IMG/VR virus record: IMGVR_UViG_3300030451_004628
Location: 1 to 22,021 of that record
Length of the DNA stretch: 22,021 nucleotides
DNA from: a virus
Strand: one strand, 5' to 3'
The position numbers and the translations under genes were made by a program. Positions within the stretch are counted from its first letter, which is position 1, and each line of letters starts with the position of its first letter. Under the pieces are notes generated by a model. That model was given only the letters and a program-made list of their open reading frames with translations. It was not told the origin of the DNA and did not search any database. Positions 4,160 to 15,977 of the stretch are shown one piece after another.

Positions 4160-4593
4160 CTCTCAACATTCTTAATGAAAGTTGGTGCGAGGGTTGTCAG
4201 TACCATAATTTTCCTTACATAGCTACGCCACCTATAAGTGGTGCAAAGCCACGACAGTTTGAGTGTATGGATGATGTATGGACAGTAGTAGATTTATTAG
4301 TAGAGGAGGTGAAAAAGTTTAATAGTGAGGGTAAGAGCTTTGATGTTGGTAAGTCTGTTAATGCTCAGCTATCCTTTTTTACTTGCAAAAACTTATTTCA
4401 TTCTTCAGAGAATCAAAAAGATATACAAAGATACATCTATTGTCAAGATTTTAATATTCAGCCATATCCAGGTAGCTATGGTGAACAACCTTTTAAATGG
4501 ATAGAAAAAGCATTTATAATTAAGAGTACATTAGCAAAATTGAACAAGGATAAGATAGAAGATGTCAGAACAAAGCATAGTAGTCAAATTTAG
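4102..4593 (+). CDS. Tail assembly chaperone frameshift extension (T-like)
   Basis: This is the reading frame one base back from the 93-residue chaperone. It is open from 4102 (after a TGA at 4099) to the stop at 4591-4593. The first ATG is only at 4267 and lacks a ribosome site, yet the upstream part codes a convincing protein (LNESWCEGCQYHNFPY, a possible C-x-x-C...H metal site). A -1 shift near 4135-4141 would give a fusion of about 238 residues (87 + 151). Its end overlaps the tape measure start by 32 nt, as T overlaps H in lambda-like phages. An alternative is independent initiation at 4267. Confidence 0.65.
   Translation, partial: NIQSYTREYVVGGRESLKLTLNILNESWCEGCQYHNFPYIATPPISGAKPRQFECMDDVWTVVDLLVEEVKKFNSEGKSFDVGKSVNAQLSFFTCKNLFHSSENQKDIQRYIYCQDFNIQPYPGSYGEQPFKWIEKAFIIKSTLAKLNKDKIEDVRTKHSSQI
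4135..4141 (+). promoter_or_regulatory. Candidate -1 ribosomal slip site
   Basis: In the chaperone frame the codons here read TTG GGG GAA, giving a run of five G. A ribosome with GGG in the P site can re-pair perfectly one base back, while the A-site GAA would become GGA, so the heptamer is not ideal. A possible stem, CCCTC (4148-4152) with GAGGG (4189-4193), begins 6 nt downstream, enclosing smaller pairs CAAC/GTTG and CATT/AATG. No better slippery heptamer is visible in the 4102-4159 window. Confidence 0.45.
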
Positions 4594-6805
4594 AGCCACA
4601 GGTGATGCCGCGCTTAAAAAAGCTGTTATTGACTTAGAAAAAGCAACTGCAGCTTTAAAAGGAGAAACATCTAGGCTTAAAGGTGTAAGTGATCAACATA
4701 ACACAACTATGTTGAGGCAACAAAAAAATGCTACAGGACTATCAAGATCATTTGCTACTTTAAGAAATAAAATGTTATTGTTTAGCTTTGCTATGTCTTT
4801 AGGTGGTAGACAGTTAATTAGGTTTACAAGAGATGCCGCAAGAGTTGATACTATGTCAGATGCTTTTTCTAGTTTAGTTGGTGGTACGCAAAATGCAGAA
4901 ATAGCTTTAGACAAACTTAAAGGTGCAACAAATAATACTATGTCTGAGTTTGACTTGTTCCAACAAGCAAATAATGCTATGGTACTAGGTATAACTAAAA
5001 ACTCTGATGAGATGGCAGTTATGTTTGACAAGGCACAAAAACTAGGTGCAGCTTTAGGTAAAGATACAAGACAATCTGTTGAATCTCTAGTTACTGGTAT
5101 TGGTCGTCAATCTAGGCTGATGTTAGATAATATTGGTATTATCGTAAAAACAGACGAAGCATATAAGGACTTTGCAGATGCTAATAATACTACAGTAGCT
5201 GCTTTATCAGATACTCAAAAAAAACAAGCATTTTTAAATGCTACTTTAGATGCCGCAGATACAAAGTTAGCTGCTTTAGGACAAAAGTTTGGCGACACAG
5301 GCGATGAAATTCTAACGAATGAACAACAATTACAAAGAATTGATGCAAGTTTAGCAAACTTTACAGATACTATTGGTAGAGCATTTATACCTGCTATAGA
5401 ACCTGCAGCAGATTTAATAGTAGCATTTACAGAGGCTATTGATCCAGAAGATGTAAGAGTTTTCGTAGCTTCTATAGCTACAGGAACAGGCTCTATATTA
5501 GCTTTTAATGCAGGTACTACGATAGGAACTACTGCTGTTAATTTATATAGAGGTGGATTAGTTAAAGCGACAGTTGCTATGAGAGGCTTTACTATAGCGA
5601 TGTTGAAAAATCCTTTTGGAATAGCAGCAATAGCCATAGCAGGAGCTACAGCGGCAGCATTGAAACATTCAGGTGTTTTAAAAAACATGGATGATACAAT
5701 GAATAAGTTGATAGGCACTTCTAAAGAATTAACTGGAGAGTTTAATAAAGATGTATTTGTTAAAGCTTCAGAAAATGCAGTTAAAATGGGTATGGCTTTA
5801 GAAAAACTTGAACTTTCAAACAAAAAACTATCTGACAATGAAAAGAATAGAATTTTATTAGAAAAAGAACACGAATTATTATTAAATCAACAGTTATTTA
5901 TACAAAAAGCCTTAGGCGAGGATACTCAAGAATATTCAGATATTTTGTTCAAACTTATAGAAAATGAAACAAGGAGAAATGAATTAGCTCAAAAAATAGC
6001 AGAAGATACAGAAAAAGAAGCAGAAGCAACAAAGAAAAAGAACGATGCAAAAAAAGATGCAAATAAAAAACTATTAGAAGAAATAGAACTATTACAAGCA
6101 AGAAAAGATAATTTTGGTGATGAATTAGGTTTTTTACAAGCTGAAATTGATATTATGCAAAAACAAGCAGATGCTCTTGGAGATACTAATGAAGCTAAAA
6201 AATTACAATTAGAAATTGATATAAAACAAAAAGAATTAGATAAAAAAAGAAGTGAGCGTATAATAGAAGAAACTATTCAAACAAAGTTATTAGCAAGTTC
6301 AATAGACTCTATGTCTACTGCATTGGCAAACGCAGCTTTAAATGGTGATCATATGGGTAGACAAATAGAAAAAGCGTTAAAAAGAATTGCAGCACAAATA
6401 TTAGCTAAAGCAGGTGTGTTTGCTTTGCTTACTGCTATTTTTCCTGGTACTGCAGCTGCAGCAGGTTTAAAAGGTATAAATCCTTTTACATTTGCATTAG
6501 GTTTAAATACTGCTCATACAGGTGGCTTAATAAAAGATAGAAAAGTACAAAAGTTTGCTACAGGTGGTGTTGTTGAAGGTGAGGACAACGTACCTATTCT
6601 TGCTCAAAATGGCGAGTTTGTAATGAGTAGAAGTGCAGTAGAGTCTGTAGGTATAGAAACTATGAATAGGATTAATCAAACTGGCTCGGCAGGTGTTACT
6701 GTTAATATATCAGGTAACGTGATGTCGCAGGATTTTGTAGAAGGAGAACTTGCAGAGAGAATAAAAGAAGCAGTACGCAAAGGCTCTAACTTTGGAATGT
6801 CATGA
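4562..6805 (+). CDS. Tail tape measure protein
   Basis: This 747-residue protein sets tail length and is ejected with the DNA. Early residues (about 10-60) form a helical segment. Hydrophobic segments lie near residues 68-86, 300-330, 350-367 and 615-637, and a long charged coiled-coil region spans about 395-570. The end has the signature of tape measures: a Gly-rich stretch (FATGGVVEGEDNVPILAQNG) followed by EFVMSRSAVESVG. By the general relation of about 0.15 nm per residue it would give a tail near 110 nm, an inference. The start at 4562 overlaps the chaperone extension; the stop overlaps the next start as ATGA. Confidence 0.9.
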   Translation: MSEQSIVVKFRATGDAALKKAVIDLEKATAALKGETSRLKGVSDQHNTTMLRQQKNATGLSRSFATLRNKMLLFSFAMSLGGRQLIRFTRDAARVDTMSDAFSSLVGGTQNAEIALDKLKGATNNTMSEFDLFQQANNAMVLGITKNSDEMAVMFDKAQKLGAALGKDTRQSVESLVTGIGRQSRLMLDNIGIIVKTDEAYKDFADANNTTVAALSDTQKKQAFLNATLDAADTKLAALGQKFGDTGDEILTNEQQLQRIDASLANFTDTIGRAFIPAIEPAADLIVAFTEAIDPEDVRVFVASIATGTGSILAFNAGTTIGTTAVNLYRGGLVKATVAMRGFTIAMLKNPFGIAAIAIAGATAAALKHSGVLKNMDDTMNKLIGTSKELTGEFNKDVFVKASENAVKMGMALEKLELSNKKLSDNEKNRILLEKEHELLLNQQLFIQKALGEDTQEYSDILFKLIENETRRNELAQKIAEDTEKEAEATKKKNDAKKDANKKLLEEIELLQARKDNFGDELGFLQAEIDIMQKQADALGDTNEAKKLQLEIDIKQKELDKKRSERIIEETIQTKLLASSIDSMSTALANAALNGDHMGRQIEKALKRIAAQILAKAGVFALLTAIFPGTAAAAGLKGINPFTFALGLNTAHTGGLIKDRKVQKFATGGVVEGEDNVPILAQNGEFVMSRSAVESVGIETMNRINQTGSAGVTVNISGNVMSQDFVEGELAERIKEAVRKGSNFGMS

Positions 6806-9800
6806 TAAATAACGAAAAATTTAATTTAGCTACAGGTGGCAATACTTACAATGTAGTACCTTTAGTTACAATAGTATCTAATTCAGGCATAATTGCTAAT
6901 CATTTTTCAACACAACCTATAAACGTAGATTTATCATTTTCTGACGACACTACTTCATATGTTGCTTCTTTAAGTTATGATCCATTACTTTTAAACGTAT
7001 CTTCTATAAAAGAGTCAGTAGATGTTGAAACTCGTAAATATAAAACATCATCTGTTACCATTACACTTTCCAATGCTAAATATCTTGGTAGACGTTTAAG
7101 TGATAGTTATACAGATATAATAAATGGTGATGTAGAAATATATTTTAAAACACAAAACATTACTGACCGCTCAAGAGCAATGTTAGTTTATAAAGGTACA
7201 GTCAGAAGAATATCTCAAACTGACACAACTCTTACTTTAAGTGTAGAAGATGCTTCAGAACAAAAAGTACATAAAGATATACCAGAGAGTATAACAAACG
7301 AAACAGATTTTAAGTCTAAATTTAAAAATAAACCTTTTCCTATGGTAATAGGCAAAGTTGATAGATCACCTTGTATAACTTCATTTGGTACGACAGGAGA
7401 ATATGATATAGATAATGATGGTGATTTAGACGAATATGATTTTGTAAGAGAAGTTTTTGCTGACAGAAAAGAATTGGCAAAATTAATACCTGAAAATTTA
7501 CAAGTTGGAAATAATAAAATTGGCGTTACTTCATTATATGCCGAAGTAGATGATGACTATGTTGGTATTTATCCTAATACTCAAATAGACTTTGAATCTG
7601 GTTTAGGTGAAGGAGATTTAAACTATTCAACTCTAGTAACTAATAATGGATTTTGTTTTTTAAATTTATTCAATGAAGAAGGTGATACTATAGAAGAATT
7701 AGCACGAAATGATACTGCTGCAAATAAAGGTAGAGTTTTAGTAGAAAGAAAAGAAAATAAAATAGAAAGAGTTGTTCAAACTAAAGGATTGGATAGCAAT
7801 TTTACCTTTAAAAGTGGAATAGTACAAGGCGAAGATTTTATAGAAGATTCTAATTTAAATTTTAACAGAATAAATGATGGAAATTCAAATAGTTGTGTTG
7901 AAATAGAAGGCGACTATAAAATGCTAGAAGAAGAACAAAATTTCTTTAAATATTTACATTATAGTTTTGCCTATTTAAAATTTCATTTTGATTCGTTACC
8001 ATCTGGTGTTACTGTAGATATAAATGATGCTTCAACATGGTCAAGGTATATAGCAAAAATACAAATTTTAGACAACACTCTACATAATGTTCCAAGTGAT
8101 GGTTTACCTATTAAAATGCCATTAGTAAGTGTATTTACTCAAGAAAATAATTTTGGTGGACAGCTAGAAGCAAAACCTTTTGCAGATGTTGAACCTAAAA
8201 GTCTATTAATACATCATGATCATACTAGAATGAATGTTGAAAACGTATTTCTTCCTAATGATGATAATCCCAATTTGCCTATACCTGCAAAAATTATTAA
8301 ACCACCTGTAGATGAAAATAGTCAAGAGGATGGTAGATTGCATATTTTTGCAACAAGTCAATCTGAATACAATAGTTATGATGGTAATAGTCCATTAGGA
8401 AGAATACATCCAATTTTAGTGCCTAATGAATCTAATTATTATTGTCTTGGATTACCAAAAATTGCAAGAGAAGGACTTTATCGTGAGGAAGATGATAATG
8501 AAAATGTAACTCTCCACTATCCAAATATAGATATTCCTGCCAAAATAAGAATATTTGAATCATCTATGTGGGCGATGGGAACTTTAGACAACTTGCTGCA
8601 AAAAAATTTTTATGCAAACGTATGGGGTAGACCTACAGGTAATTTAGGTATATATAATTTACAATTAGTTCCTGATATTGGACAGTCTACAAATGAAATA
8701 GAAGAAAAAGCGACAGGACAACTCTTAAAGTATTTGTTTGATAATAATCCTTTTGTAGTTATAGATGCAAATACAATATATAACATATTAAGAGATAATT
8801 TACAAGTCTATCCTACGCAAATAATAGTAGAAGAGCAAGTTTCAACTGATCCTAACAATCCGTTTGGAGGAGTAACAATAGATATTACTGACTGGCAAAT
8901 AGTTAGAACAATAAATAGTAATGAAATATCATTACAATTTAGATGTGATGGAATTGTTACAAGCTATTCTAATGAGCAGGAGGAAGGAAGTGAACCTACA
9001 ATACCAAATGGTGATGTTAAAGTTGTATTATCAGATGGACAAGAATATACTTTACAATCTGAATATAGTGATTATTATGAATTTGCTACATTTGATATAA
9101 TACCTATTGAAAAAGCAGGAGAAATAGTACAGCATATTTTACAAGAAGAGTGTAAGTATGATGGAGAATTTAATGAAGATGAGTTTAACGATATAGAACA
9201 GATACATAGTGGATGGAATTTTGCTTTTACGCAGAGCAAACTAATAAGTTCCAAAAAATTAATAGAAGATTTTTCAAGATCAACTAAGTCATTTCCTAGA
9301 TTTAGAGCTGACGGAACTTTTGGTTGGAATGTAGTCAAAGATACTTACTCAGACGATGATATAGACTTAGTAATAGAAGAATCAGATATTATTAACTACA
9401 GATATGACAGGACAAAATTAGAAGATGTAAAAACTAAGGTAAAAGTGTTGTTTAACATTGACTATGCTAAAGGTAACCATTTATTTTCTACGGATGATAT
9501 TCTAGCGACAGACTATGTTAATACTAGTATATATCAGTATTATGGTTTAGCGACTGACGACTCAGACTCTACTTTAAACTTTGAAAGCGATTATATTAGA
9601 GATAGATATACAGCAGAACAGTTGCGTAATTGGTTGCTTACTTGGAATATGAATCAAAAGAATTTAATTAGTCTTACGTTACCAATTAAATATATAAACT
9701 TAGAAGTTGGTGATGTCGTTGCTTTAGACAAGGAAATACAAGGCACAAAGATATTTGGAGAAACCTACACACAGACATCAATTACCAGAAATGGACAAGA

Positions 9801-10128
9801 AATATATCCATATTTTATGGTATATGAAACCAACAAGAATTTAGAAAAGGTAGATATAAAACTAATACAACTACACAACCTTGATATTAATAATTTAGGA
9901 ATAGTCATAGAGCCAGAAGTGCAACAAGAAGAGTCTAATGTTGTAGTTCCAACAGGTGATGTAAATGGCGATGGCAATGTAGATGTTGTAGATATAGTAA
10001 ATGTAGTTAGTTTTGTTTTGGAAGTAAAGCAGCCTACTGATGAAGAGTTTTTTCAAGCAGATATAAATCAAGATGGAAACTTAGATGTATTGGATATAGT
10101 TGCTTTAGTAAATATAATATTAGGATAA
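6802..10128 (+). CDS. Large tail tip / hub protein with C-terminal dockerin-like domain
   Basis: This 1108-residue protein directly follows the tape measure (ATGA overlap), the place of distal tail, hub or receptor-tip proteins. Residues about 1-170 are beta-rich and resemble tail-hub N-termini. A region near 985-1000 (LEVGDVVALDKE) matches the 'leVGDvv-l' segment of hub proteins. Residues 202-213 (DIDNDGDLDEYD) form an EF-hand-type calcium loop. Residues 1052-1108 carry two dockerin type I repeats: DVNGDGNVDVVD and DINQDGNLDVLD, each with the D-x-N-x-D-G-x-x-D-x-x-D spacing and a following hydrophobic helix. Dockerins bind cohesins in bacteria; in a phage tip a surface-binding or subunit-docking role is inferred. 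Confidence 0.75.
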   Translation: MINNEKFNLATGGNTYNVVPLVTIVSNSGIIANHFSTQPINVDLSFSDDTTSYVASLSYDPLLLNVSSIKESVDVETRKYKTSSVTITLSNAKYLGRRLSDSYTDIINGDVEIYFKTQNITDRSRAMLVYKGTVRRISQTDTTLTLSVEDASEQKVHKDIPESITNETDFKSKFKNKPFPMVIGKVDRSPCITSFGTTGEYDIDNDGDLDEYDFVREVFADRKELAKLIPENLQVGNNKIGVTSLYAEVDDDYVGIYPNTQIDFESGLGEGDLNYSTLVTNNGFCFLNLFNEEGDTIEELARNDTAANKGRVLVERKENKIERVVQTKGLDSNFTFKSGIVQGEDFIEDSNLNFNRINDGNSNSCVEIEGDYKMLEEEQNFFKYLHYSFAYLKFHFDSLPSGVTVDINDASTWSRYIAKIQILDNTLHNVPSDGLPIKMPLVSVFTQENNFGGQLEAKPFADVEPKSLLIHHDHTRMNVENVFLPNDDNPNLPIPAKIIKPPVDENSQEDGRLHIFATSQSEYNSYDGNSPLGRIHPILVPNESNYYCLGLPKIAREGLYREEDDNENVTLHYPNIDIPAKIRIFESSMWAMGTLDNLLQKNFYANVWGRPTGNLGIYNLQLVPDIGQSTNEIEEKATGQLLKYLFDNNPFVVIDANTIYNILRDNLQVYPTQIIVEEQVSTDPNNPFGGVTIDITDWQIVRTINSNEISLQFRCDGIVTSYSNEQEEGSEPTIPNGDVKVVLSDGQEYTLQSEYSDYYEFATFDIIPIEKAGEIVQHILQEECKYDGEFNEDEFNDIEQIHSGWNFAFTQSKLISSKKLIEDFSRSTKSFPRFRADGTFGWNVVKDTYSDDDIDLVIEESDIINYRYDRTKLEDVKTKVKVLFNIDYAKGNHLFSTDDILATDYVNTSIYQYYGLATDDSDSTLNFESDYIRDRYTAEQLRNWLLTWNMNQKNLISLTLPIKYINLEVGDVVALDKEIQGTKIFGETYTQTSITRNGQEIYPYFMVYETNKNLEKVDIKLIQLHNLDINNLGIVIEPEVQQEESNVVVPTGDVNGDGNVDVVDIVNVVSFVLEVKQPTDEEFFQADINQDGNLDVLDIVALVNIILG

Positions 10129-12311: not shown

Positions 12312-12580
12312 GATATAAAATATCTCCTTAGTAATTTAAATGCTTCTTTCCATACATCTATTCGATAATGCTCGTTAAATCGTTTAATGCCCATACCATG
12401 CCTATCCTGGTGATGTTCTCTACATAGAGGTATACAACTGAAATCTTTAGGTGTTTGTTTGTTTCTATTATTACCCATACCTATAGCTTCTAGGTGATCA
12501 GGATCAACAGGTGTGCCGCCACATATCAGACAATGTTGTGATTTAATATACTTTAGGTATTCTTTTGTGTCAATCGCCAT
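12308..12580 (-). CDS. HNH endonuclease (DUF968-like)
   Basis: This 90-residue protein carries a zinc-supported HNH fold: CLIC (C17, C20), the DPDHLEA segment (D28-H29 catalytic-type pair), CIPLC (C49, C53) and REHHQDRH (H56, H57, H61). Such phage proteins nick or cut DNA and take part in recombination or packaging. The start overlaps the end of the cytosine methyltransferase by 28 nt, so the two are probably made together. Its stop lies at the -35 element of the next leftward promoter. Family recognition is strong; the substrate is unknown. Confidence 0.85.
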   Translation of the reverse strand: MAIDTKEYLKYIKSQHCLICGGTPVDPDHLEAIGMGNNRNKQTPKDFSCIPLCREHHQDRHGMGIKRFNEHYRIDVWKEAFKLLRRYFIS

Positions 12581-13515
12581 ATTTTTTCGCCTATTACTTT
12601 TACAACAGGTACACTTACTGCGTTGCCTAATTGTTTATATCTTTGAGTGTCAGACTGACCGTCTGTCCATCCATCAGGAAAGCCTTGCAATCTCTCTGCT
12701 TCTGTTGGAGTTAATCTTCTTATATTTTTATCTATTATAAGTGGTGGCATAGTAGATATATCAGTTTTAGAGTGCTTACGAGTAGACAAACAAGGACTAT
12801 TACCATCTTTTCTTATCCTCAAACCTTCATCATTTCTGAAGTCAGCAACCTTTATATAAGTTTCACCCATAGCATGAACGCCTTTATGTAAATTTGATGT
12901 TATTGTTGAACAATATTCGCTACTCCTTTGCCTCTCCTTTTTTCTGCTCTGTTCAAATACTCTATCGCTTTCTCTGATAGGAAATATTTTTGATCTACTT
13001 CCTTCTCCAATATATCCGACAATGTATATTCGCTCTCTATTTTGAGGTAAAAACCACTTAGTATTAAGTAGTTGGCATTCAATGGTATAACCAATTTCGG
13101 TAAGAACTTTGTATATTGTAGCAAATGTTTGTCCATTGTCGTGGTTAAGTAAGCCTTTAACATTTTCGAGTATAAAGTATGAGATTGGTTTGCCAGTTTC
13201 TTTGAAATATCTGAGAATCCGTGCAATTTCAAAAAATAATGTTCCTCTTGTGTCATTGAATCCTTGCCTTTTTCCAGCAATCGAAAACGCTTGGCATGGA
13301 AATCCTCCACAAAGGATTGTAATGTCGCTTGGCAAGTCTTTTGGTTGAATAGTTGTAACATCTCCGAGTTCTGTTGCATTTGAAAATCTCCTTTTATATT
13401 GCTTGGAGGCATATTTATCTATCTCACTATATCCTATCCAATCAAACTCAAAGCCTGACTGTTCAAGTCCTAAATGAAAGCCACCAATACCACTAAACAA
13501 GTCTAATAACTTCAC
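12553..13515 (-). CDS. DNA cytosine-C5 methyltransferase
   Basis: This 320-residue protein has the m5C methyltransferase motifs in order: DLFSGIGG (I, residues 5-12, AdoMet binding), GGFPCQAFS (IV, catalytic C74), ENV (VI, E117), QNRERIYIVG (VIII, about 158-167), then a short target-recognition region, and RLTPTEAERLQGFP and QLGNAVSVPV (IX-X). It methylates cytosine in a short site, probably protecting phage DNA from host restriction. The start is GTG, overlapping the previous stop as GTGA; the LLDLFSGIGG opening fits the family's normal N-terminus. All key residues look intact. Recognition site not predictable. Confidence 0.95.
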   Translation of the reverse strand: MKLLDLFSGIGGFHLGLEQSGFEFDWIGYSEIDKYASKQYKRRFSNATELGDVTTIQPKDLPSDITILCGGFPCQAFSIAGKRQGFNDTRGTLFFEIARILRYFKETGKPISYFILENVKGLLNHDNGQTFATIYKVLTEIGYTIECQLLNTKWFLPQNRERIYIVGYIGEGSRSKIFPIRESDRVFEQSRKKERQRSSEYCSTITSNLHKGVHAMGETYIKVADFRNDEGLRIRKDGNSPCLSTRKHSKTDISTMPPLIIDKNIRRLTPTEAERLQGFPDGWTDGQSDTQRYKQLGNAVSVPVVKVIGEKIWRLTQKNT

Positions 13516-13841: not shown

Positions 13842-14025
13842 TTGATTCTCCTAATGTTTTGTTAAACTTCATTATTACATCGTTCAATTCACCATCACTT
13901 AAATTATTTATTTTATAATGTGGCGAATCATTTTGCACTTCTAGTTGATGTAATGGTTTACTTTTGTGATATAAGCCTAAATTTGCCCATATAAGGAACT
14001 TTTTTATTATACTTAGAGTGAACAT
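13813..14025 (-). CDS. 70-residue protein of unknown function
   Basis: A strong AGGAG site lies six nt before the ATG at 14025. The N-terminus (MFTLSIIKKFLIWANLGLYH) is hydrophobic with basic residues and could be a short helix or membrane contact. The rest (SDGELNDVIMKFNKTLGESN) is a polar helix. It overlaps the preceding small gene by 13 nt and the resolvase gene by 29 nt, supporting real, coupled translation. No family recognised. Confidence 0.6.
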   Translation of the reverse strand: MFTLSIIKKFLIWANLGLYHKSKPLHQLEVQNDSPHYKINNLSDGELNDVIMKFNKTLGESNAEQIQREG

Positions 14026-14186
14026 GGTATTCTCCTAACTCTTAGGTGTAAAAGCCTTGTTTTCAAAATGTCTATCATATCTCTTGTAATTTCTACATTA
14101 TAATCAGTTATCTTGCCTAAATTCTTTTCATAATGTTTTATCATCTTTTCGTATGTTTCTATTACGACATGGTTTTTTTCTTTCAT
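14013..14186 (-). CDS. 57-residue helical protein
   Basis: The ATG at 14186 has AGAGGA about 5 nt upstream, and the frame runs to a TAA at 14013-14015. The product begins MKEKNHVVIETYEKMIKHYE and continues as a charged helix ending RLLHLRVRRIPCSL, suggesting a small dimeric coiled coil. It is the first gene after the structured segment at 14205-14309, whose RNA would be its leader. It overlaps the next start by 13 nt. Confidence 0.65.
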   Translation of the reverse strand: MKEKNHVVIETYEKMIKHYEKNLGKITDYNVEITRDMIDILKTRLLHLRVRRIPCSL

Positions 14187-14204
14187 TATTTCCTCTACTT
14201 TATA

Positions 14205-14309
14205 CGGACTGATGCGGAAGGCAACATATACATATGGATTTGACTCCTCAATATAGTTCTATACACTTCCGCACTATCAAGTAGTTACCAATGACTGACG
14301 AACAGTCCG
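14205..14309 (-). ncRNA. Candidate structured RNA / cruciform element (nested cloverleaf)
   Basis: An outer inverted repeat CGGACTG (14205-14211) with CAGTCCG (14303-14309) encloses a second, TGCGGAAG (14213-14220) with CTTCCGCA (14266-14273). Inside the second stem lie three self-complementary 12-mers nearly end to end: CATATACATATG (14225-14236), TTGACTCCTCAA (14240-14251) and TATAGTTCTATA (14252-14263). That forms a cloverleaf of 61 nt. A competing hairpin GACTG-ACGAA-CAGTC (14293-14307) overlaps the outer stem. Strand is assumed from the leftward genes; a DNA-level role such as an origin or protein-binding cruciform is equally possible. It does not fit a normal tRNA. Confidence 0.5.
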
Positions 14310-14359
14310 CTTTGTTATGTTTGGAGTTTTTATCCTGCAACTTCCAGCCAGTAAATTTC
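14310..14359. other. Non-coding spacer beside the structured element
   Basis: Together with 14187-14398 this is the only gap in the leftward replication block. Between the two hairpin regions I see no ORF with a ribosome site and no promoter I can defend. A short AACTTCCAGCCAGTAAATTT stretch is relatively GC-rich for the neighbourhood. Confidence 0.4.
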
Positions 14360-14398
14360 GAAAATGAGCCAAGCCACATTCAAACCTGACTCATTTTC
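14360..14398 (-). terminator. Hairpin at gene end, weak terminator candidate
   Basis: GAAAATGAG (14360-14368) and CTCATTTTC (14390-14398) form a 9-bp stem with a 21-nt loop that spans the stop codon of the zinc-ribbon gene. On the minus strand the stem's 3' arm ends in TTTTC followed by GAAATTT, only partly U-rich, and the stem is AT-heavy. It could be a weak terminator or an RNA-end-stabilising hairpin. Confidence 0.35.
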
Positions 14399-14585
14399 TT
14401 TTCGTTCTCTCCCAGAGTTTCTTACCACTTTCTCTCTTAGCACAACTCTCACAAATTATTTGTTCTTCCCATTCTACCTCTTTAAACATGGCTTTCATTA
14501 AACTTTTATCATCTTTATACATATGTGTTCCATATTTACTACACATATCGCATTTACTATCAAGTTTGCCTAAATAATAGATCAT
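14391..14585 (-). CDS. Small zinc-ribbon protein
   Basis: The start is placed at the ATG at 14585 because GGAG lies 8 nt upstream; a longer frame from 14624 has no ribosome site. The 64-residue product contains CDMC and, about 28 residues later, CESC, a four-cysteine zinc ribbon, and a basic tail (KKLWERTKRK). It overlaps the end of the nuclease-like gene by 26 nt. Zinc-ribbon miniproteins in phages often bind nucleic acid or host proteins; no function can be assigned. Confidence 0.65.
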   Translation of the reverse strand: MIYYLGKLDSKCDMCSKYGTHMYKDDKSLMKAMFKEVEWEEQIICESCAKRESGKKLWERTKRK

Positions 14586-15021
14586 CTTTTTTACTCCATT
14601 TAACTGCAATATTATCTGCAACATTAATAGGCAAAAGATAACCTTTACTTGTTTTTGTTTCTGTATTTTTATATTTATTTTTTTTATGTAGAGTTTTTAA
14701 AGTACGGATTGGAAATTTCCAATAATTATCATAATCTCCAATTAAATATTCTTCAGATTTATCTTTTCTATATATGCCACTTTTAGTCCAATTTTTAATA
14801 TTTTCATTTGTTTTTTCATGAGTTTCAATATATAAATTTCCTGTTTTTTTATAATTACAATCTAATTTAATTTCAATGTTTAAATTATTTTCTCCAACTT
14901 CAAATTGAAATGTTTTAGTTTGGTAAAAAAACATATTTATACCTTTAGATTGATATAATTCTTGGATAAATGTAGCATATTTATCTCCTTTTTCCATCAT
15001 TTTTTCATAATATAATGTCAT
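14560..15021 (-). CDS. PD-(D/E)XK-like nuclease candidate
   Basis: This 153-residue protein contains a beta-hairpin core with acidic and lysine residues: IEIKLD (E50, K52, D54), GNLYIETHEK (E66, E69, K70), then SGIY (81-84) and IGDYDNYWKF. A late ETKTSKGYLLPI segment follows. I recall this arrangement ('G-N-x-Y-I-E...E-K...S-G-I-Y...T-x-T-S-K-G-x-L-L-P') from phage hypothetical proteins with a PD-(D/E)XK-type fold. It is joined to the MT-A70 methyltransferase by an ATGA overlap, so a linked cutting or repair role is plausible, but catalysis is unproven. Confidence 0.55.
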   Translation of the reverse strand: MTLYYEKMMEKGDKYATFIQELYQSKGINMFFYQTKTFQFEVGENNLNIEIKLDCNYKKTGNLYIETHEKTNENIKNWTKSGIYRKDKSEEYLIGDYDNYWKFPIRTLKTLHKKNKYKNTETKTSKGYLLPINVADNIAVKWSKKDDLLFRQT

Positions 15022-15977
15022 ACTTGATTACCCCAAACATCCCAATCGTCTACTTTTTTTCTTCCAAAAAGTTCAATTTTATTACTATAAGGATATAAGG
15101 TATTTATTATTTCTCTAAATTCTTCAGGTTTTTCACTATGTTTATTTGTTTTTTCAATACTTTGTACACTATCAAAAAGTTTAATATTTTGAGGCGTATA
15201 GCTACCTCTAGTACAAATTAATAAAAATTCATGTCTTACTGAGTTGTAATGCCCCATATTATGTTTTACTTTATCCCATACAAATGAAGATTTGTAATTA
15301 AATCCCCAAGCATTAATGACTAAAAAGGTATCTTCAAGAAGTGGTGATGTAGTCCATAAAAATAAAATAGAATTTTTATCTGCTATTTCACCTATATCTA
15401 ATTCACAAAGTTCATCTATTGACATCGTAGGATAATGTTTTTCTGCACCACCTAATTTTTCTGTATTTTGTTGATCATTATATTTCCATGGTGGATCAGC
15501 ATATATAACTTGATAAATACCTTCAACCTTTTGAGGATTAGATTTTTTAATTTCTTCTATTTTTTCTTGCCTTTCTATCTGCCTTGCTACTCTTATTGCT
15601 CCACTAGTAGATAGCTCTTTTTCAACCTCTAAATAATTTTCAAACTTTTCTTCAGGTATGTTTGCTATTTTTTGCCACTTTGACGATTGATTATAAGTAA
15701 TACCCATATCACTAAGTGTTTCACAACCCCTAACAGGCTGTGAGGGGTTAGGATTCCCACCTTTTGCTTTAGGCGTTTCTTTTAACAGTTCTCCTGCTCT
15801 TCTTTCGGCACGAAGTTTAATTTCTTCTGCCTTTCTTATAACTTCTGGCGACTCTTTAGCTTGTTTTAAGGCATACCTATAAGCCTCAGCTTTATCTCGC
15901 AGTTGTTTTATCTCATCTACAGAATGACACTCTATTACTGCGTTTTTCATTTTATTCCATAATATTAATTCACTCAT
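15018..15977 (-). CDS. MT-A70 family DNA adenine-N6 methyltransferase
   Basis: This 319-residue protein has the catalytic DPPW motif at 161-164 (in QVIYADPPWKYND) and the family segments EKHYPTMSIDELCEL, ILFLWTTSPLL and GHYNSVRHEFLLICTRG. It ends with a KPEEFREII...KIELFGRKK module, typical of phage and plasmid MT-A70 enzymes. Residues 1-150 form a charged helical N-terminal domain (KAEEIKLRAERRAGELLKE) with a helix-turn-helix-like part (LSDMGITYNQSSKWQKIANI), as in many phage members. It probably adds N6-methyladenine to phage DNA for protection. Ribosome site AAGGAAAACA fixes the start at 15977. Confidence 0.92.
   Translation of the reverse strand: MSELILWNKMKNAVIECHSVDEIKQLRDKAEAYRYALKQAKESPEVIRKAEEIKLRAERRAGELLKETPKAKGGNPNPSQPVRGCETLSDMGITYNQSSKWQKIANIPEEKFENYLEVEKELSTSGAIRVARQIERQEKIEEIKKSNPQKVEGIYQVIYADPPWKYNDQQNTEKLGGAEKHYPTMSIDELCELDIGEIADKNSILFLWTTSPLLEDTFLVINAWGFNYKSSFVWDKVKHNMGHYNSVRHEFLLICTRGSYTPQNIKLFDSVQSIEKTNKHSEKPEEFREIINTLYPYSNKIELFGRKKVDDWDVWGNQV

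Follow-up and report, generated by a model that had tools for sequence, protein, structure and literature searches.

A pseudoknot-like motif and nested stems form a candidate gene-control leader in uncultured phages

Introduction

What function do ordered inverted repeats serve in a gap between two genes of an uncultured virus? In IMG/VR record IMGVR_UViG_3300030451_004628, of which we analysed a stretch of 22,021 nt (the window), the gap between the minus-strand open reading frames (ORFs) 14391-14624 and 14013-14186 holds CGGACTG/CAGTCCG enclosing TGCGGAAG/CTTCCGCA. A preliminary description had drawn these repeats as a nested cloverleaf and suggested a new phage RNA, a leader switch for the gene starting at 14186, or a cruciform origin or protein-binding site. 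Comparison with related sequences leads us to propose, with a probability of about 0.68, that the repeats are the structured part of a minus-strand mRNA leader that also carries a pseudoknot-like motif and regulates the next gene. The locus is probably an undescribed phage gene-control RNA.

Results

The gap holds two nested stems but not a cloverleaf

We found the 7-bp outer stem (P1), the 8-bp inner stem (P2, spanning 61 nt) and the hairpin that competes with P1 where the preliminary description had placed them (Table 1). Perfect nested stems of at least 7 bp occur in only two places of the 22-kb window, and none of 2000 dinucleotide-preserving shuffles of the leader reproduced their close arrangement. 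The three 12-mers proposed as cloverleaf arms (14225-14236, 14240-14251 and 14252-14263) are self-complementary at 10/12, 8/12 and 10/12 positions, respectively, and proved to be ordinary palindromes for this DNA. Two of them, if RNA, would require 2-nt loops, triplets of similar 12-mers occur in ~25 other places in the window, and all three are absent from a diverged relative, L108, whose inner loop is much shorter. The statement in the preliminary description that the structure is not a normal tRNA agrees with an ARAGORN scan, which reported 0 tRNA genes in the window.

The folding z-score of 14204-14310 was -3.0 for the minus strand and -3.3 for the plus strand. Strand asymmetry of folding does not separate RNA from DNA, and the palindromic 12-mers would also suit repeats that act as DNA, either as a cruciform replication origin or as a binding site for a dimeric protein. 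Against this, the 12-mers are ordinary and not conserved, the stems are missing from many of the leaders described below, and GC skew tracks gene direction and keeps its sign at the site. We dropped the replication origin for lack of a skew switch, and we regard a DNA role of either kind as very improbable.

A conserved 30-nt motif lies just upstream on the minus strand

The most conserved part of the locus is a 30-mer outside the interval first described, just upstream of it on the minus strand (Table 1; position n of the 30-mer is 14353 - n on the window). Allowing up to 3 mismatches, we found exactly one copy in 25 of 27 viral records and none in the relatives L117 and L118, with the second-best matches per record at background level. 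The motif is oriented with transcription, on the coding strand, and lies in early or replication regions ahead of differing genes. Judged by their structural gene sets, the motif-bearing records comprise at least two phage types; no protein cluster common to all of them was found, many of the contigs being incomplete.

A scan for the first 17 nt of the motif returned 79 stretches, which after removal of duplicates and 8 unrelated hits left 55 distinct elements from ~50 otherwise differing uncultured phages, each of which has the 30-mer or combines its first 17 nt with a differing 3' half. These fall into three classes: class 1 is the 30-mer itself (n = 23), class 1b has 19-66 nt between the 17-mer and the A-rich tail (n = 12), and class 2 has GARYYRYY directly after CAG (n = 20). 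In 38 further records the 17-mer was again present as a single copy, except in one 104-kb contig with two. The motif is not the tail of a protein, since in many members the frame encoding WLEVA closes only a few codons upstream, and we rejected a protein-coding reading for this reason.

Searches elsewhere returned little. In cultured phages (queried with the 30-mer and two class 2 sequences) and plasmids (queried with the 30-mer) all matches were partial and at chance level, genome contigs gave one match that we took as chance, and the 17-mer was not found in the literature searched. The search against Rfam that had been proposed for this gap returned no family at the gathering threshold (Rfam 15) in the window or in 13 motif-bearing loci, and permissive scans of the gaps in the window and in L108 gave chance-level matches only. 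The Rfam result includes no ribozyme match, which weighs against a self-cleaving ribozyme. Either a ribozyme or a nuclease-blocking pseudoknot that sets mRNA ends would make the motif a site of RNA processing or protection, and a compact pseudoknot with a near-invariant core and variable stems, found between genes and not at a fixed distance from either of them, is what such a site might look like. We nevertheless consider this role improbable.

The motif reads as an H-type pseudoknot

The 30-mer fits an H-type pseudoknot in which positions 1-4 would pair with 16-19 (stem 1) and positions 8-10 and 12-13 with 26-30 (stem 2); its outer stem 1 pair covaries, and pairing in stem 2 survives through wobble and a single compensatory change. 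The outer pair, 1-19, is C-G in 23 elements, A-U in 15, G-C in 3 and U-A in 1, with the rest unpaired; in the window itself it is a nonstandard A.G. The observed number of paired elements was reached by 0 of 20,000 permutations, though the elements are related. The other three pairs of stem 1 show no variation and hence no covariation signal. Our search patterns fixed much of the stem 1 sequence, so that joint changes there could be missed; among the sequences gathered, relaxed cores with other stem 1 sequences yielded none that was convincing.

In stem 2, A8 with U30 replaces G8-C30 in L162, which also has G9.U29, and the variants ending in ACUCU have G8.U30. Across 13 distinct class 1 and 1b sequences (inserts and L301, whose partner strand is ACUUC, excluded), 96.6% of cells were paired, compared with 92.3% in column shuffles (0/500 reached the observed value) and 36-56% with slid partners, and the covariation score was 0.174 vs 0.099. 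Class 2 (10 sequences) was paired at 96.7% vs 21-56% for slid partners, and one side is invariant there, which leaves the column shuffle powerless. A putative alternative pairing, AGUUGC/GUAACU, which could compete with the pseudoknot, occurs in 4/20 leaders (p ~0.01 against shuffles), probably not four independent lineages.

These pairings bear on whether the 30-mer could instead act as DNA, as a promoter or operator that a host factor recognises, with the downstream stems merely a structured 5' untranslated region. The motif would fit that description in being single-copy, transcription-oriented and sharply bounded, and in abutting the upstream gene in some genomes; in addition, TGGC..TTGCA is similar to a sigma-54 promoter and KATAAA to a -10 box. 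A promoter, however, would not tolerate variable spacing between its halves. Those of the motif lie 1 to ~66 nt apart depending on the phage, with inserts between them, and because of this we rejected a promoter as the main reading. The GG-to-GC spacing in the 30-mer is also 9 nt rather than the 10 of GG-N10-GC, the changes in the 3' half obey RNA rules of wobble and compensation, and no RNA polymerase or sigma factor family was matched by any of the 41 proteins of the relative G001 among the matches listed, which for PHROGs were the first 25 of 64 families. We therefore think a promoter or operator unlikely.

The nested stems lie between the motif and a ribosome-binding site

Under mechanical criteria, the ORF calls in relatives being mechanical as well, an ORF with a Shine-Dalgarno-like site lies downstream of 53/55 elements. 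Most leaders that lack structure place the start codon 17-51 nt behind the motif; where a stem-closed module is present the distance is mostly ~105-300 nt, and in the window it is 136 nt. L278 and L293 have similar genes downstream, the first without and the second with such a module, and the class 1 members ending in ACUCU or ACUUU (L125, L166 and L162) are among those without a structured leader. Mean folding z was -2.2 for leaders vs -0.6 for random windows of the same contigs (Mann-Whitney p = 8e-6, a generous figure in that near relatives are included). An asymmetry between sense and antisense folding at first seemed significant and was rejected, as matched controls along the operon had the same bias (p = 0.14).

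Table 1. Features of the locus, in window coordinates; pseudoknot assignments are predicted.
Feature	Position	Strand	Remark
Conserved 30-nt motif ACUGGCUGGAAGUUGCAGGAUAAAAACUCC, read as H-type pseudoknot	14323..14352	-	Single copy in 25 motif-bearing records; 55 elements; pair counts in text
Pseudoknot stem 1, 5' strand ACUG (positions 1-4)	14349..14352	-	Pair 1-19 varies as A-U, G-C, C-G, U-A
Pseudoknot stem 2, 5' strand GGAAGU (positions 8-13, A11 bulged), in stem 1 loop	14340..14345	-	Pairs with ACUCC
Pseudoknot stem 1, 3' strand CAGG (positions 16-19)	14334..14337	-	
A-rich linker AUAAAA (loop 3)	14328..14333	-	Variable insert just before linker in class 1b
Pseudoknot stem 2, 3' strand ACUCC	14323..14327	-	ACUCU, ACUUU variants still pair (wobble/compensation)
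Outer stem P1, 5' strand CGGACUG	14303..14309	-	Starts 13 nt after 30-nt motif
Competing hairpin GACTG-ACGAA-CAGTC over P1	14293..14307	.	In window; not preserved in L108
Joining segment UUGGUAACUAC, between P1 and P2 5' strands	14281..14291	-	Conserved, identical in L108
Inner stem P2, 5' strand UGCGGAAG	14266..14273	-	
P2 variable interior with three 12-mers	14221..14265	-	Much shorter in L108; 12-mers ordinary by count
Inner stem P2, 3' strand CUUCCGCA	14213..14220	-	1 nt from P1; 6/8 pairs changed on both sides in L108
Outer stem P1, 3' strand CAGUCCG	14205..14211	-	7/7 pairs replaced on both sides in L108
Ribosome-binding site region AGAGGAAAUA of downstream gene	14187..14196	-	
Downstream ORF, 57 aa, no family match	14013..14186	-	L108 homolog, 41% identity
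Upstream ORF, 77 aa, same strand	14391..14624	-	L108 homolog, 51% identity
Inverted repeat GAAAAUGAGUCA/UGGCUCAUUUUC, between upstream gene and motif; possibly terminator	14360..14398	-	Not scored as terminator by scan

We then compared the stems among relatives. Close relatives (94-100% identity over the gap) have the same stems unchanged, and the six sites in 14204-14322 that vary among them all lie outside stem pairs, which is not significant alone. The gap of the diverged L108 is syntenic, lying between homologs of both flanking genes, with P1 as GUAGGGAA/UUCCCUAC and P2 as GGAGAGGU/GCCUCUCC (one U.G pair). When the stems of the two gaps were aligned on their outer ends, 13/15 pairs had changed on both sides and 0 were broken, so that the covariation check proposed for homologous gaps came out in favour of conserved pairing; the joining segment is the same in L108 although both stems differ. 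The close stem arrangement of the L108 leader was reproduced in 1 of 2000 dinucleotide-preserving shuffles.

A third lineage, L146, carries a nested pair, CACGUUA/UAACGUG and GGGUAAUAC/GUAUUACCC, which starts at the window's offset, 13 nt downstream of the same motif; its stems and those of the window may be homologous or analogous. The nested P1/P2 layout is thus found in only two lineages besides the window, with the exact architecture in synteny only in the deeply diverged L108. Because the L108 stems are replaced yet complementary, and because L146 has a nested pair at the same offset, we assign the structure to the minus-strand leader of the gene at 14186, where compensatory stems lie between the pseudoknot-like motif and the ribosome-binding site. 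Of the possibilities first raised for the gap, this agrees with a new phage RNA that is a leader for that gene. The module that lies between pseudoknot and ribosome-binding site varies among leaders, and the nested stems are the form it takes in the window.

Other elements and genes in the window and its relatives

Further structured elements were seen around the motif. A second recurring stem-closed element has an inner hairpin loop like (C)UAAAAGG(A), for example GAGGGTTnATAC..GGTGnCTAAAAGGACATC..GTATnnnCCCTC, and is found, in motif-oriented coordinates, in L136 (~4568-4650), L164 (~9789-9876), L255 (downstream of 1614) and L146 (downstream of 4803). Another element, like GCAGrTAyGTTTC and set in a G+C-rich closing stem, occurs downstream of the motif in L136, L138 and L146, in the insert of L296, and in G025 (the record of L118). 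In L138, at offsets 54-158 after the motif, two long stems made by TTGAGCAGG and ATATTAGCCTTG with their complements cross each other and would give a large pseudoknot within a leader several hundred nt long.

Three coding regions elsewhere in the window also drew attention. ORF 15018-15977 and its counterpart in L013 (10778-11815, motif-oriented) have a common N-terminal part and differing methyltransferase-like C-terminal parts, which suggests domain exchange among relatives. A cytosine methyltransferase ORF at 12553-13515 has a shorter ORF in its place in the relative L020, and 6802-10128 encodes a 1108-aa tail-like protein with a dockerin type I domain (Pfam PF00404) at its end.

Discussion

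On the minus strand the order of elements is the 30-nt motif, a 13-nt spacer, the nested P1/P2, a ribosome-binding site and the gene starting at 14186. We infer that the leader would be transcribed along with early or replication genes, and that its pseudoknot may be recognised by a host component (the ribosome, RNA polymerase or a host protein) or by a small ligand. Such recognition would tune expression of the next gene post-transcriptionally, with the stem-closed module behind the pseudoknot possibly acting as a spacer, a stabiliser or a second regulatory domain. The motif is common to unrelated phages that have no protein in common, and for this reason we favour a partner on the host side or a small ligand.

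We tentatively raise the broader possibility that these elements constitute an undescribed class of compact pseudoknot RNAs, spread over unrelated uncultured phages with a probably common host group, which senses a host metabolite or binds the host ribosome or polymerase to control a downstream early gene. Structured regulatory RNAs are seldom recognised in uncultured phages, and a short, near-invariant pseudoknot in phages whose structural genes are unrelated would point to one host-side partner or ligand exploited by many. Related leaders with and without the inserted stem module offer ready comparisons for the role of each part.

A host-borne partner would also be expected if the motif acted at the elongation stage, as a nascent pseudoknot that binds host RNA polymerase and suppresses termination in the early operon. 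The put RNA of phage HK022 offers a functional analogy, being a cis-acting phage RNA of the early region that acts on host polymerase with no phage protein (PMC9378689). The motif occurs in unrelated phage types with no common protein cluster, making a host-borne partner plausible, and in the window it lies inside the early operon, behind an inverted repeat. Unlike put, which is ~70 nt long with two stem-loops, lies behind early promoters and has no pseudoknot of this kind, the element here is a 30-nt pseudoknot before many differing genes. We accordingly hold an antitermination role to be unlikely and return to a leader that regulates the next gene.

For such a leader, the gene 32 mRNA of phage T4 provides one precedent, in which a pseudoknot of ~28 nt lies 5' of a less structured ribosome-binding-site stretch and serves as the binding site of T4's own SSB (PMC535899). 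The motif resembles this operator in being a pseudoknot of similar size in a phage mRNA leader, upstream of a ribosome-binding site. It differs in its core, in the hairpin module that often separates pseudoknot and ribosome-binding site, and in preceding many genes in unrelated phages where the T4 element precedes gene 32. No family matches the downstream ORF of the window, and the genes that follow the motif vary between phages, so that the association with an SSB gene is not reproduced here.

Riboswitches provide another comparison. The preQ1-I aptamer is ~30 nt long, with a short stem 1 and a loop that pairs with the 3' tail, and lies upstream of the Shine-Dalgarno site. Its H-type pseudoknot has an A-rich loop 3, and the 3' strand of its P1 directly follows a C (in UC or AC) (PMC11625349). 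Classes 1 and 1b appear to fit this H-type layout with its A-rich loop 3. In contrast, a G stands in place of the conserved C, with UG preceding CAG in all elements, and class 2 elements have no A-rich loop; moreover, Rfam returned no match here and no queuosine gene was recognised downstream. We do not claim membership of preQ1-I, because G replaces C in class 1 and class 2 is without the A-rich loop. With a G where preQ1-I has its specificity C, a riboswitch for another ligand would be conceivable.
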